DNA from: Candidatus Zhuqueibacterota bacterium
GTDB taxonomy: Bacteria > SM23-31
NCBI GenBank assembly: GCA_022562855.1
Contig: JADFON010000057.1
Location: 1 to 8,414 of the forward strand
DNA: 8,414 nt
Reading direction: 5' to 3'
Part shown: positions 1,694 through 7,733 of the stretch, one piece after another
How positions within the stretch are numbered: position 1 is the first letter of the stretch
How the letters are laid out: every line of letters begins with the position of its first letter
Program-made: the position numbers and the translations under genes
The notes under the pieces: model-generated
What the model saw: the letters and a program-made list of their open reading frames with translations, nothing else
Database searches by the model: none
What the model was told of the DNA's origin: nothing

Positions 1694-3841
1694 TCAACGT
1701 TTTAACTTTTGTATGCCTCTTATTTTCTCCAGTTTATCCATCGCCTTTTTGAGCCAAACTATATCTTTGACTTCAAGGGTTATATCAATAATTGCTACAA
1801 TTCCCTGTACCTCGATGTGGATACCGAGAATGTTTATATCCAGCTTCGAAATCGCAAACGCCATATCTCTCAAGAGGTGTTTTCTATCTGCCCCGACTAC
1901 CTGAAAACTTGCCGGAAATACCCCGTCCAAATCCGGCGCCCAATCGACTTTAACACCATGTTCGTTTGCCGAAAACTGCTTTTGAATACTTTTACATTTT
2001 ACCCGGTGCACGATAACACCTTTATCTTTGTTTGTGAAACCCAGAATTTTGTCACCGGGAATAGGTCTGCAGCATTTGCTCAATTCGATCACGAATCGAT
2101 AGTCCTTTTCGATTACTATATACGACTCCCCTGAATTTTGTTTTTGAGATTTTTTCAAAATTTTTGGAATTCTCTGGAGCAGAGAAGATTTGTGGTCTTC
2201 ATAGATTTTGGGGAACACCCTTCTTGCTATTTCCTCTGCACTTACTATTTGCGTACCCAGACCCTGCCAAAGCGTATCCAAATTGCTATAGCCGGAACGC
2301 TGTTTCAACTGCTCGATGTCCATTTCAGAAAAAGATTGATTGTGGTCGCGCAGTTCTTTTCTGAGCATTTCCATTCCGAGTTTTTTGTATTGAATTTTTC
2401 TGTTCTCACGAAACCATTTGTCGATTTGATTTCGAGCCTTTGAAGTAACAACGAAAGATGTCCAGTATTCCTGCAGGTTTGTTTTTGAAGAGGTCAGTAT
2501 CTCCACTTCATCTCCATTGTGCAGGGTTGTATAAAGAGGAACAACTCTCGAATTAACCTTTGCCCCGATACACTGTAACCCGATTTCGGTGTGAACCGCA
2601 AATGCAAAATCGACCGGCGTGGCATTACTTGGTAAATTTATCAGTCTTCCTTTTGGCGTAAAAACAAATATTTCGTCCTTATACAAATCGAATTTAAAGG
2701 ACTGCATAAATTCATCGGGGTCGGGGTTTTCTTTATTCCAATCCAGTATCTGGCGGACCCATGCAAGCTGATCGTTCAATTGCTTATCTTCCTCTTTTTC
2801 TTTGTACAGCCAGTGTGCCGCTATTCCCATTTCCGCAGAATAATCCATAGCCTTTGTGCGAATTTGCACTTCTATCATCCGACCAAATGGGCTTATTACC
2901 GTTGTGTGAAGAGACTGGTATCCATTGCTTTTTGGCGTGGCAATAAAATCTTTAAACCGGTCTGCAACCGGAGTGTACATCGTATGCACAATGCCCATTG
3001 TTGCATAGCAGTCTTCCTTTTTGTCGGTAATTATCCTCATCGCCAACAGATCGTATATTTCTTCAAAGGGAATATTTTGCTCCTGCATTTTTTTGTATAT
3101 GCTAAAATAACTTTTAGGTCTGCTGATAATTTTTCCCGGAATTTTAAGTTTTTCCATTTCTTTGCTGATGGGCTTTATCATTTTCTCGATATGTTTGACC
3201 CTGTCTTCCCATTTGTCCTTAATTTTCTTATCGAGAAAAGAGTATTTTCTCGGAGCGAGATATTTTAACGCAAGGTCTTCGAATTGCCATCCGAGACTAG
3301 CTATACCAAACCGGTGCGCAAGTGGAGCATATACATCCATTGTTTCCTGGGCTATCCATTTTTGCTTTTTTTTCGGGAGAAATTCCAGAGTTCGCATGTT
3401 ATGAAGCCTATCGGCAAATTTTATCATCACGACCCGGATATCCTTAGCCATCGACATGACCATCTTTCTGAAATTTTCCGCCTGTTTCAATTCTGCTTTT
3501 TTAAACTTTAAGTCTGCTATTTTTGTTACACCGTCGACGAGGTGGGCAATATCTTCTCCGAATTCCTTTTGAACCTCACTCAGTGTAACTCCGGTGTCCT
3601 CGACCACATCATGAAGAAGCCCGGCAGATATGGTAGTAATGTCCATTTTGAGGTCAGCCAAAATGTTTGCAGCCTCAATGCAGTGCTCAAAGTAGGGAAC
3701 CCCGGACCGTCTCGTTTGGTCTTTATGCGCTTCGAAACCAAACCAGAAAGCCTTTCTCAAGATTTTATTCTGACCCTTTGGCATATAATCCAATATCTTG
3801 CGCCGGAGGTCTCTGTATTTTTTTTCAAACGCTTTCTTCAT
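1694..3841 (-). CDS. spoT: Bifunctional (p)ppGpp synthetase/hydrolase, Rel/SpoT type
   Basis: Long RSH proteins set the level of the stringent-response alarmone (p)ppGpp: the HD domain hydrolyses it and the nucleotidyltransferase domain makes it from ATP and GDP/GTP. At 715 residues this is full length. The hydrolase site is complete: H53, H77-D78, E81-D82 in HDVVEDT, D144 and N148 in FADRLHNMR. The synthetase (about 236-345) has R241/K243, D264, RFKD (295-298), GYQSLHT (307-313) and E324 in EVQIRT. RFKD is the basic form of the motif found in bifunctional enzymes. Then come a TGS domain (about 391-451, H417 in FAFAVH), a helical region, the Cys-rich block (CC at 590-591, H612, C616) and a C-terminal ACT domain (about 644-715). 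One oddity: the first synthetase loop reads ISRPKSYFSIY where GRPKHxYSIY is usual, so synthesis could be weakened. It begins 57 nt after its paralogue, probably in the same operon, with an ATG lacking a clear ribosome binding site. It could equally be named rel. Confidence 0.95.
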   Translation of the reverse strand: MKKAFEKKYRDLRRKILDYMPKGQNKILRKAFWFGFEAHKDQTRRSGVPYFEHCIEAANILADLKMDITTISAGLLHDVVEDTGVTLSEVQKEFGEDIAHLVDGVTKIADLKFKKAELKQAENFRKMVMSMAKDIRVVMIKFADRLHNMRTLEFLPKKKQKWIAQETMDVYAPLAHRFGIASLGWQFEDLALKYLAPRKYSFLDKKIKDKWEDRVKHIEKMIKPISKEMEKLKIPGKIISRPKSYFSIYKKMQEQNIPFEEIYDLLAMRIITDKKEDCYATMGIVHTMYTPVADRFKDFIATPKSNGYQSLHTTVISPFGRMIEVQIRTKAMDYSAEMGIAAHWLYKEKEEDKQLNDQLAWVRQILDWNKENPDPDEFMQSFKFDLYKDEIFVFTPKGRLINLPSNATPVDFAFAVHTEIGLQCIGAKVNSRVVPLYTTLHNGDEVEILTSSKTNLQEYWTSFVVTSKARNQIDKWFRENRKIQYKKLGMEMLRKELRDHNQSFSEMDIEQLKQRSGYSNLDTLWQGLGTQIVSAEEIARRVFPKIYEDHKSSLLQRIPKILKKSQKQNSGESYIVIEKDYRFVIELSKCCRPIPGDKILGFTNKDKGVIVHRVKCKSIQKQFSANEHGVKVDWAPDLDGVFPASFQVVGADRKHLLRDMAFAISKLDINILGIHIEVQGIVAIIDITLEVKDIVWLKKAMDKLEKIRGIQKLKR

Positions 3842-3898
3842 GAAAATGTATATTCCAAAAATATTTACAAGAAAAATTCGATCTTACTTTTAACAACT

Positions 3899-6091
3899 TT
3901 ACCCTAAAGCAACCGGCGCCGATTTAAGAAGTGAATTAAACTCCGAATAGTGCATTCTTATCACATTGCCTACTGATTTCATGCTCTTGAACGTATTGAT
4001 AAGTTGCTCCAGCTCTTTTGTACTTGATAATTCGACAACAAGTATACAACTATATTCGTCGGACATATTGTTACTTATTTGATAATTGAGCAGATTTACT
4101 TTTTGTTTTCCGAATACCGGGGTAATGTTTTTAATAAAATCGTCCTGCTTTAACAATGAAACTTTTATGCCCGCTACGTATGTCCTGTCGGCTTCTTGCT
4201 CCCAATCCACTTCAATTTCTCTTTCCGGTTCGTTTTGCAATTGCCTGATGTTTTTACATGTATTACGGTGGACGGTTACTCCCTTTCCCCTGGTTATATA
4301 TCCCATTATCGTATCACCTGGAATTGGGAGGCAGCACTTCCCGAAATGAACCATAAAGCTATCCATACCACCTACTTTGATTCCCATGGGATTTTTTCTT
4401 CCGGAGCTAATTCTTTGTTCGATTGTTTCCTCATGCTGTTCCTCTTTTTCCTCCGGCTTCAATATTTTCTTGATAACCGCCTGCGCGGCGTGTTTTCCGC
4501 TACCGACGGCGTAATATAGATCGTCGATCGAATCAAAAGGATATATTTTGCAGATTTCGTTTAACAACTCATTTGTAATCGCTACTTTGACTTTCCTGAG
4601 GGCACGAATAAAGATCTCTTCGCCCAGCTTTATGCTCAGCAATCGCGTCTGGTTTCTGATCCATTTTCTGATTTCAGCCAATGCTCTTGAGCTTTTTGCG
4701 TATTTTACCCAGTCAGTATTGATCATCGGCTGGTTAGAAGTCATTATTTCGACTCTGTCCCCATTATTTAATGCACGGTCAAACGGTACTATGGCGCCGT
4801 TAACCTTTGCCCCGGAGCAGCGCATTCCAATATCCTTGTGAATCGAGAACGCAAAATCAATCGGTGTTGCCCCCTTCGGGAGTTTTTTCAATTCACCTTT
4901 CGGAGTCAATACAAAAATATCGTTTTTAAACTCCTGCAGATTGAAAAAGTTTTCAAAAGTTTTATCTGCAAATCCGGCACTGCTTTTTGTGGCATGCTCA
5001 CGAAACCATTCGAAAAAAGAATCTGTCCCGCTCTTTTTGCCGCCTTCTTTGTATGCCCAGTGTGCCGCTATACCAATTTCTGAAGTTTTGTGCATTTCTT
5101 CAGTACGAATCTGCAGCTCGAATTTACTTTCTTCTGAATTGCTGTCCTCAAGCAATAAATGGAGAGATTGGTAACCGTTAATCTTCGGCTTCTGGATGTA
5201 ATCATCAAATTCTTCGAGAATCGGATTGAATATTTGCTGTGCGACAGCGAGTACCTTATAACAATCGGGAACGGACTTTACTACAACGCGAACAGCCAAA
5301 ACATCGAAGATCTGGTCGAACGGTCTTCCGGTGCGCTGCATTTTACGGTAGATACTGGTTACATGTTTTGACCTCCCCGTTATTTCCGGAGACAAACGGT
5401 GTTTTTTTAATTCGTACTGCAGTTTCAAAATAACTTTATTCAGATAACGGTCAAACCGGTACTTTTTCTTTGAAATCCTGGAGGATATATCTGCAAATAT
5501 TTCGGGATGTAATACTTCTAACGCCATATCTTCCAGGACAATCTTGTATTTAAAAAGACCCAAACGGTGCGCTAACGGCGCATAAAATGAAAGCGCTCTT
5601 TCAGCCTGCTTTTTCTGTCGTGAAGGGATAAGTTTTTTCCTGTTTAACAATCTTAAATACCTGTTGGCAATAAGCATCAATATTGCACGGAAATCATTCG
5701 CTACTGTTAAAACCATCCTGATATAATCTTCTTCGCTTTCTCCTTTTTTCGCCTTTTTTGCCAACATGCTTATCTTGCCATACTCCTCGACCAATGAACA
5801 TAATTCATTACCGAATTCCTTTCTAATCTTGTCCATCACAACCGGAAACCGGTACAAATCGTGCAAAAATCCTGCTGCGAGAGAAAAGCTGTCCATACCC
5901 AAATCTGAAAGTATGTTTACCGACTGTATGGATTCGTCATGGGTCAACACTAACGGATCGCCGGTGAACTCACTACGCAAATTCTCGGAGAAATCCTTGA
6001 CTGCAAGAACAAAACTCTTTTCGTCCGGTTTCATCCCAACGGTAAATGACTCATCGCTTATTTTTAATTTCTTTTGAATGGCGGTATTCAT
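3899..6091 (-). CDS. relA: RelA-type (p)ppGpp synthetase with degenerate hydrolase domain
   Basis: This second long RSH protein should make (p)ppGpp, probably in response to stalled ribosomes. From the ATG at 6091 it has 730 residues. The HD domain fold is recognisable (about 30-190) but its metal site is broken: E53 replaces the first His, H77-D78 remain, R81-F82 replace the Glu-Asp pair, and N143 stands where the last Asp belongs (IANRYLRLL). The synthetase is intact: GRSKH (239-243), D263, EFDD (294-297), GYQSLH (306-311) and E325 in ELQIRT. The acidic EFDD is the form seen in synthetase-only RelA enzymes. TGS (about 391-452, H418), a helical region, the Cys block (C586-C587, H608, C612) and an ACT-like end follow. 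A longer frame runs to a TTG at 6253, but its extra 54 residues look non-coding; the 6091 start puts H77-D78 at the same positions as in the downstream paralogue. No Shine-Dalgarno sequence is visible. Confidence 0.92.
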   Translation of the reverse strand: MNTAIQKKLKISDESFTVGMKPDEKSFVLAVKDFSENLRSEFTGDPLVLTHDESIQSVNILSDLGMDSFSLAAGFLHDLYRFPVVMDKIRKEFGNELCSLVEEYGKISMLAKKAKKGESEEDYIRMVLTVANDFRAILMLIANRYLRLLNRKKLIPSRQKKQAERALSFYAPLAHRLGLFKYKIVLEDMALEVLHPEIFADISSRISKKKYRFDRYLNKVILKLQYELKKHRLSPEITGRSKHVTSIYRKMQRTGRPFDQIFDVLAVRVVVKSVPDCYKVLAVAQQIFNPILEEFDDYIQKPKINGYQSLHLLLEDSNSEESKFELQIRTEEMHKTSEIGIAAHWAYKEGGKKSGTDSFFEWFREHATKSSAGFADKTFENFFNLQEFKNDIFVLTPKGELKKLPKGATPIDFAFSIHKDIGMRCSGAKVNGAIVPFDRALNNGDRVEIMTSNQPMINTDWVKYAKSSRALAEIRKWIRNQTRLLSIKLGEEIFIRALRKVKVAITNELLNEICKIYPFDSIDDLYYAVGSGKHAAQAVIKKILKPEEKEEQHEETIEQRISSGRKNPMGIKVGGMDSFMVHFGKCCLPIPGDTIMGYITRGKGVTVHRNTCKNIRQLQNEPEREIEVDWEQEADRTYVAGIKVSLLKQDDFIKNITPVFGKQKVNLLNYQISNNMSDEYSCILVVELSSTKELEQLINTFKSMKSVGNVIRMHYSEFNSLLKSAPVALG

Positions 6092-6362
6092 TGTTTTGTG
6101 ACGCCAATCTCGATTTTCGGATTGGAAATTAATTTGACGCCGGTATGTATCTATACAACTAAACGAGCAAATTTCATGATAATAAAATACAACATATTTT
6201 AACTGCTTTGAACTATTTTTTGAGATTTCTGAGTATACAGTGAAAAATATCAAAAAATCGATAATTGAGATTCAATAAATGGAGAGGATTAATTGCGTGG
6301 ATAACCGGATAGTGATTTCAATACTAATTGAATGAGGAAAATAGTTTGATTTTAGAAAATCC
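6092..6362. other. 271-nt AT-rich gap between dnaB and relA-type gene
   Basis: If the relA-type gene starts at 6091, this gap holds no gene. On the minus strand it contains TATACT (6237-6232), five of six to the -10 consensus, but without a matching -35 at 16-19 nt. It also has several short AT-only symmetries, none GC-rich enough to be a convincing terminator of dnaB. It is the natural place for a promoter of the RSH pair. Confidence 0.45.
6232..6237 (-). promoter_or_regulatory. Possible -10 box for the RSH pair
   Basis: TATACT differs from TATAAT at one position. It would start transcription near 6225 and leave about 134 nt of leader before the ATG at 6091. No acceptable -35 hexamer stands at the usual distance; TTGATA occurs upstream but only 10 nt away. 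Weak support. Confidence 0.2.
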
Positions 6363-7733
6363 TTAGACCGGGATATCTTCAAACACGGCGAGGTTTTCAA
6401 ACTTTGCGTGATCTTTTAAAAATGTCAAGTAAACGGTATCGGTCGGTCCGTTACGCTGCTTACCGATGATGATCTCGGCGATGTTTTCGGTTGAGCGTCC
6501 CTTGTCATCCTCCTTGATTCCGTACATTTCAGGACGGTAAATGAAAAGAACTACGTCCGCATCCTGTTCAAGAGCGCCTGATTCACGTAAATCGGAAAGC
6601 ATCGGTCTCCGGTGTTCCCCTCCCCTTATTTCCGGCTGGCGCGAAAGCTGGGACAGGGCGATTACCGGGATATCGAGTTCCTTTGCAACTGCTTTGAGTG
6701 ACCGGGAAATTTCCGAGATCTCCTGCTGCCGGCTTTCTTTTCCCGACGGTCCCTGCATAAGTTGAAGGTAGTCGATAACCAGCAATTGGATATTATGTTC
6801 CAATTTCAATCTGCGCGCTTTAGACCGCAATTCAAAAATGCTCAATGAGGCGGTATCGTCGATGAAAATCGGGGTCTCCGCAAGAGCACCGGCTGCGATT
6901 GTCAGCTTATTCCACTCCTTGTTGTCCATTCTTCCTCTTCTCAGCTTGTTTGAGTCAATTCTCGTTTCACAACTCAACAGGCGGGTGGCAAGTTGAAACT
7001 TCGACATTTCAAGACTAAAGAATCCGACGCCGATTTTGTCCGATACTGCGGCGTTGCGCGCCACGTTTAATACGAAGGCTGTCTTACCCATCGAAGGTCT
7101 CCCGGCAATTATTATCAAATCGGACTTTTGAAATCCTGCAGTAAGTTCGTCCAGCTTTGTAAAACCGCTGGGGACGCCGATGACCTTACCTTTGCGTTTG
7201 CTGTAACTCTCAAGCACTTCCAACGAATCATGGAGTATCGGGCTTATCTTTTCAAAACCGGCTTTTAACCCGATTTCGCTTATGTGGAAAATTTTCTGTT
7301 CAGCTTTGTCCAGCAGAGACCTGGCATCTTCACGCGCTTCATAACTCTCTTTCGTGATTTCACTTGCAATGGAAATCATACTTCTGAGCATAGCTTTTTC
7401 AAGGACAATTTTCGCGTGATATTCCACATTAGCCGTCGAGGTGACCCGGTTCGTGCATTCCGTAAGATAATACGCACCTCCGATTTCCTCGAGTTTTTCG
7501 TCTTTTTTGAGTTGTTCGGTGACGGTGATAAGGTCTATCGCTTCGTTGCGAGTAAAGAGAACATTCATTGAATGGAAGATTCTCTGATGTGCAGTTTTGT
7601 AAAAATGATCCTCCTTCAGCAGTTCCATAGTGCTAAACACAGCGTTGCTTTCCTGCATCATGGCGCCAAGTACAGCCATCTCGATATCAACATCCTGCGG
7701 CGGAATCCGCTCTTTTAAACCGTTGTCTTCCAT
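6363..7733 (-). CDS. dnaB: Replicative DNA helicase DnaB
   Basis: DnaB is the hexameric, ATP-driven 5'-3' helicase that unwinds DNA at the replication fork and binds primase. All 456 residues are present, a usual length. The N-terminal primase-interacting domain (about 10-115) begins with PPQDVDIEMAVLGAMM. A linker leads to the RecA-like motor (about 185-450): GVPSGFTKLDELTAGF (186-201), Walker A GRPSMGKTA (211-219, K217), FFSLEMS (238-244), Walker B LLVIDYLQL (317-325, D321), ALSQLSR (359-365), DLRESGALEQDAD (381-393), and KQRNGP (425-430), whose K425 and R427 match the arginine-finger region. No intein interrupts the gene, although DnaB is a common intein host. Translation starts at ATG 7733, 15 nt after the udg stop and without a visible Shine-Dalgarno sequence. 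The chromosomal setting and full domain set argue against a phage helicase. Confidence 0.97.
   Translation of the reverse strand: MEDNGLKERIPPQDVDIEMAVLGAMMQESNAVFSTMELLKEDHFYKTAHQRIFHSMNVLFTRNEAIDLITVTEQLKKDEKLEEIGGAYYLTECTNRVTSTANVEYHAKIVLEKAMLRSMISIASEITKESYEAREDARSLLDKAEQKIFHISEIGLKAGFEKISPILHDSLEVLESYSKRKGKVIGVPSGFTKLDELTAGFQKSDLIIIAGRPSMGKTAFVLNVARNAAVSDKIGVGFFSLEMSKFQLATRLLSCETRIDSNKLRRGRMDNKEWNKLTIAAGALAETPIFIDDTASLSIFELRSKARRLKLEHNIQLLVIDYLQLMQGPSGKESRQQEISEISRSLKAVAKELDIPVIALSQLSRQPEIRGGEHRRPMLSDLRESGALEQDADVVLFIYRPEMYGIKEDDKGRSTENIAEIIIGKQRNGPTDTVYLTFLKDHAKFENLAVFEDIPV

Follow-up and report, generated by a model that had tools for sequence, protein, structure and literature searches.

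Tandem RelA-like and bifunctional Rel genes in one family of candidate phylum SM23-31, an apparent recurrence of the division between synthetase and hydrolase of (p)ppGpp

The window analysed here, a stretch of 8,414 nucleotides from contig JADFON010000057.1, belongs to a 2.5 Mb metagenome-assembled genome (MAG; G000) that is 80% complete and, like the genomes whose RSH loci are compared with it below, an incomplete MAG. Its minus strand carries, in reading order, a uracil-DNA glycosylase gene, dnaB (6363–7733), a RelA-like long RelA/SpoT homologue (RSH; P0001, 730 aa, 3899–6091), a gap of 57 nt (3842–3898), a bifunctional Rel (P0002, 715 aa, 1694–3841), an HU/IHF-family gene (1020–1328) and ruvX/yqgF (454–960); both RSH genes are read from the minus strand, and the one upstream therefore has the higher coordinates. 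The start of P0001 is assumed to be the ATG at 6091, leaving 271 nt between it and dnaB (6092–6362), and an in-frame extension reaches a TTG at 6253. An Rfam search of the window gave no match. When it was listed as Candidatus Sonubiota (PMC11382960), the candidate phylum SM23-31 comprised three genomes, recovered from vent, trench and estuarine sediments; it is drawn adjoining phyla of the FCB group (PMC10439189). A MAG from coral skeleton, PL23a_bin.125 (G002, contig JANQEH010000082.1), has also been assigned to it (PMC9868349). The window takes the phylum name from G002, with which G000 shares a family code.

Both RSH products match the whole TIGR00691 model above its cut-off of 499.2 bits (522.7 for P0001, 722.6 for P0002) and contain the full long-RSH set of Pfam domains, HD_4, RelA_SpoT, TGS, RelA_AH_RIS and ACT_4. 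A sequence-only reading of this DNA had described two full-length RSH genes lying head to tail 57 nt apart, the upstream one with an EFDD motif and a broken HD site, the downstream one with RFKD and a complete HD site; the open reading frames and domain matches bear out the coordinates, and the alignment bears out the motifs.

Among the ligand and catalytic residues of the hydrolase (HD) site, P0001 retains only H77 and D78. H53 is replaced by Glu, the E81/D82 pair by Arg/Phe, and D144, N148 and T151 by N143, R147 and N150, respectively, so that the motif read as LLHDVVEDT in the partner has become FLHDLYRFP (5843–5869), and LIANRYLRLLNRKKL (5630–5674), in which a metal-ligand Asp is changed to Asn, stands in place of FADRLHNMRTL. 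The homologue in G002, 50% identical to P0001, is broken at the same positions, with Gln at H53, no Glu-Asp pair and Asn for D144. Both genera have thus lost the catalytic Glu-Asp pair along with two of the four metal ligands, which leaves the hydrolase of P0001 very probably dead. All of the synthetase residues checked (R240, K242, D263, Y307, H311, E325, Q327, H344) are present in P0001 and likewise kept in the G002 homologue, and both reading frames are intact, that of P0001 over 730 codons, so that neither chance nor simple decay explains the loss of the HD site. The TGS His418 and the CC motif of the RIS domain are also found. P0001 thus shares with RelA a degenerate hydrolase site beside an intact synthetase site, as well as the acidic EXDD motif (EFDD in P0001 and G002; EEFDDY, residues 293–298, 5198–5215), but it falls outside the RelA clade in trees and scores 418 bits against PRK10872, the NCBIfam RelA equivalog model, well below the cut-off of 728. 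An AlphaFold model (mean pLDDT 71) shows an RSH fold with RelA (5kpv) as the best structural match, a likeness that has no bearing on activity.

In P0002 the HD site is complete (R44, H53, H77, D78, E81, D82, D144, N148, T151), and includes the motif LLHDVVEDT at 3593–3619. These residues carry identical numbers in RelSeq, and we take their roles to be those of the RelSeq structure. The synthetase site is complete as well and bears the RXKD motif (DRFKDF, residues 294–299, 2945–2962), the combination of a bifunctional Rel. P0002 lies outside the SpoT clade and joins the SM23-31 Rel proteins in trees, in which E. coli and Pseudomonas SpoT branch with Azospirillum Rel. The proposal of a dedicated synthetase beside a hydrolase-competent partner is therefore supported at the level of sequence, by loss of the HD site with the synthetase kept in one protein and by two complete sites in the other. 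A single transcript for both genes is likely, since they share a strand, lie close together in all three genera that have them (57 nt in the window, 97 nt in G001, 9 nt in G002), and have no terminator-like site between them on the minus strand of the window. The 57-nt gap folds only weakly, worse than shuffled sequences (z +1.75), and contains no terminator-like hairpin.

The survey of related genomes that the sequence-only reading proposed found the same adjacency in both other members of the window's family, so that the RelA-like/Rel pair occurs in all three genomes examined, each of a different genus. G002 has the order RelA-like gene, 9 nt, Rel, ruvX, lnt, with dnaB on a separate contig, so that the link between dnaB and the RSH genes is not kept there; the G001 contig begins within the RelA-like gene, which is known without its HD region, and continues with 97 nt, Rel, HU, ruvX and lnt. 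The HU/IHF-family gene downstream is thus common to the window and G001, and ruvX to all three. Three genomes of sister families (G003, G004, G005) possess one bifunctional Rel each, adjoining dnaB as in the window: G003 in the order uracil-DNA glycosylase, dnaB, single Rel with complete HD, and G004 and G005 as dnaB and single Rel with lnt further along. The same adjacency of dnaB and Rel appears in G006, from another phylum. Because the single rel adjoins dnaB in G003–G006, dnaB appears to be the ancestral upstream neighbour of rel, and the extra copy in the window sits between dnaB and the resident rel. Searches with PF04607 and PF13328 gave no further RSH synthetase or hydrolase match in six SM23-31 genomes. 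An assembly artefact was considered and ruled out, as the two copies share 31–32% identity and both G001 and the coral-skeleton MAG have the pair too.

Beyond the family, a survey of 386 genomes, in which all those with at least two matches at E 1e-25 were re-examined, G057 too, found no adjacent long-RSH pair, with the proviso that copies on separate draft contigs may adjoin; in multi-match genomes the copies lay far apart or on different contigs, or the extras were short synthetases. When genome contigs were searched with P0001, matches came only from G002 and an Anaerolineae MAG, while the matches listed from plasmid and phage collections were all Rel, RelA or SpoT of known groups, about 29–34% identical. 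In G150, G287, G332, G241 and G259 (L070–L072, L075–L078, L080–L082), two long RSH-like genes were observed, on separate contigs; those of G150 and G287 have the look of RelA/SpoT pairs of proteobacteria, and the HD residues are missing from G332_a, G241_b and G259_b.

Phylogenetic placement of the RelA-like group depends upon the treatment of its HD domain. A tree including this domain gives the group a lone branch of 1.49 outside the FCB-type Rel, and was set aside for placement because a degenerate HD lengthens the branch. The HD-free tree unites P0001 and its G002 homologue with Rel of SM23-31 and nearby lineages in a clade of 14 rows (99/99), proteobacterial RelA forming a separate clade (100/100), and across the HD-free trees the RelA-like group falls with FCB-type Rel within a starred clade of 18 or 19 rows; none of the trees contained a named Bacteroidia sequence. 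The tree proposed by the sequence-only reading gives a partial answer: in the careful tree one clade of all SM23-31 proteins receives just 48/32, too little to fix the exact position of the RelA-like group, and AU tests do not reject a sister relation to the local Rel (p 0.174 with 30 rows, 0.546 with 49 rows), its likelihood in the 49-row set being 1.66 above that of the free tree. That reading had also left local duplication and convergence on proteobacterial RelA as alternatives, which they need not be, since trees, AU tests and locus favour both in succession. Taken together, the tree results and the locus comparison favour a tandem duplication that took place locally, within the window's family, and a later convergence on RelA that extended to the EFDD motif. 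We consider it probable, with room left for other histories, that in the stem of one SM23-31 family a tandem duplication of a single bifunctional rel adjoining dnaB gave rise to a dedicated synthetase and a bifunctional Rel.

The strongest competitor leaves function unchanged and alters only the history, supposing that the duplication predates the SM23-31 families, or that a neighbouring FCB phylum was the source of the extra copy, with loss in families f2 and f3. P0001 matches the single G003 Rel better (37%, 466 bits) than it matches P0002 (31–32%, about 369 bits), clearly so in the AH-RIS region (41% versus 25%), hence the possibility of a duplication before the family split with later loss elsewhere, and in the free HD-free trees the RelA-like group lies outside the local (f1) Rel clade. 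However, the f1 Rel branch is long (0.66–0.82) and can account for these distances, a tree joining the RelA-like group to f1 Rel is not rejected and is the likelier one in one set, and G003, G004 and G005, although just 70–90% complete, hold no trace of a second copy, leaving the older event an unlikely contender.

Horizontal transfer of a proteobacterial relA, landing beside the resident rel, would explain why EFDD and a like loss of HD are found in both, and the HD-inclusive tree does take the group out of the FCB-type Rel. It is nonetheless highly improbable, considering that the HD-free trees return the group to the starred clade with FCB-type Rel, that joining it to proteobacterial RelA costs 24–37 log units and, although p was 0.073 with 30 rows, is rejected with 49 rows from which the EXDD columns were removed (p 0.018), that the PRK10872 score is far short of its cut-off, and that a position directly beside the resident rel is that expected of a tandem duplicate.

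If tandem duplication of the dnaB-adjacent rel is the correct history, the upstream copy would have lost (p)ppGpp hydrolysis and become a RelA-like dedicated synthetase that kept its ribosome-facing TGS and RIS/ZFD domains, and its product would be predicted to synthesize (p)ppGpp when triggered at the ribosome. The downstream copy would have retained both hydrolysis and synthesis, its product presumably hydrolysing (p)ppGpp in the role of SpoT as the sole RSH able to remove it. The pattern of conservation is consistent with such a division. Judged by the columns that reach 75% conservation or more among 33 Rel of other groups, P0001 retains 34/76 in HD, 50/67 in SYNTH, 31/35 in TGS and 16/17 in RIS, and P0002 keeps 70/76 in HD. 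Between the window and G002, identity of the RelA-like proteins is 37% in HD, 56% in SYNTH, 72% in TGS, 57% in AH-RIS and 41% in ACT, and that of the partner Rel 71%, 65%, 87%, 49% and 62%, respectively. That the upstream protein has neither activity and acts as a regulator, for instance a ribosome-binding decoy or a partner of Rel, would suit its lost hydrolase site and long branch, yet is scarcely credible when the checked synthetase residues are kept in two genera and SYNTH identity between genera is close to that of Rel (56% versus 65%) while HD is relaxed (37% versus 71%).

A more elaborate version of the division, in which the tandem rel split reciprocally, the upstream protein specializing in ribosome sensing and synthesis and the downstream one in hydrolysis with an eroded RIS/ZFD, and in which one transcript would fix the proportion of synthetase to hydrolase, is put forward tentatively, as somewhat short of an even prospect. 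Of 24 RIS/ZFD columns with 60% conservation or more among 33 other Rel, 20, 20 and 19 are retained by the three RelA-like proteins and 14, 14 and 13 by their three Rel partners, compared with 21, 19 and 19 in the single Rel of the sister families, 17 in E. coli SpoT and 15 in Pseudomonas SpoT. The loop ITRGKG is present in the RelA-like proteins and reads TNKDKG, YREDKG or LDESKN in the partners; conversely, 7, 5 and 6 of 17 ACT columns are kept in the RelA-like proteins versus 12, 14 and 12 in the partners, and the AH region is eroded in both. These counts hint at reciprocal wear, the RelA-like proteins losing HD and ACT conservation and the partners losing RIS/ZFD in the direction of SpoT, a hint and no more because the RIS difference nearly vanishes at a 90% conservation threshold and the three genera are not independent.

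The EFDD motif accompanies HD loss in the window's RelA-like protein, in proteobacterial RelA and in the Anaerolineae MAG, but the link is not strict, being broken by G014, G062 and G096_b (RFKD with a broken HD). An acidic motif occurs together with a complete HD site in G014 (L019, SFDD) and G062 (L026, RFDD), so that it is not by itself a mark of a monofunctional synthetase. With the window's family there is a further lineage that combines EXDD with lost hydrolysis, which helps to test whether a dedicated synthetase needs this motif. The Anaerolineae gene (L041:7479-9794, contig CALECP010000137.1) encodes a RelA-like RSH with EFDD and a broken HD (LLYHTVRD) whose long branch joins proteobacterial RelA, so that it may owe its presence to transfer, convergence or mis-binning. 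A seemingly complete split is seen in family f94 (G096, G363; L054, L055, L073, L085), where the two long RSH are unlinked: one combines a complete HD with a damaged synthetase (KFQILT for E-QIRT) and has an in-frame stop in G363, the other has RFKD and a broken HD.

A division between synthetase and bifunctional enzyme is itself already known, and not confined to the gamma- and beta-proteobacteria to which the sequence-only reading had attributed it. In Bacteroidia, many HD residues are missing from Rel, which is predicted to be a monofunctional synthetase and is accompanied by RshB as synthase and hydrolase (PMC6994654), the latter nesting within Bacteroidetes Rel (PMC3153485). Rel (BT0700, PGN_0465) and RshB (BT3998, PGN_1757) resemble the window's pair in being two long RSH of an FCB phylum with the same division, but are unlinked by their locus numbers, whereas the window's genes are adjacent. 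RshA, RshC and RshD are likewise lineage-specific second copies of Rel (PMC3153485), but are classed [HS], are in some cases truncated and are not described as a tandem pair of synthetase and hydrolase; a literature search on adjacent long RSH, or RSH in uncultured phyla, found nothing relevant. What is new here is the lineage, the adjacency and, probably, the separate origin. A single Rel keeps its synthetase and hydrolase domains in equal amounts, a balance that is given up where RelA and SpoT are separate (Atkinson et al. 2011, PMC3153485), and a tandem pair is an intermediate arrangement, of two enzymes on probably one message, for which the direction of change can be read because the sister families have a single rel adjoining dnaB. 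The likeness to RelA/SpoT of the gamma- and beta-proteobacteria extends to the six-domain build of both proteins and to the combination of EXDD with a broken HD in one and of RXKD with a complete HD in the other, but the window's pair is of separate origin by the trees, its genes are adjacent where relA and spoT are unlinked, and the ACT domain of its RelA-like copy is more eroded than that of Salmonella RelA. The maker/eraser split of (p)ppGpp known from E. coli and Bacteroides apparently arose again in SM23-31, and, should the reciprocal-split reading prove true, would there constitute an independent, operon-encoded remake of RelA/SpoT.
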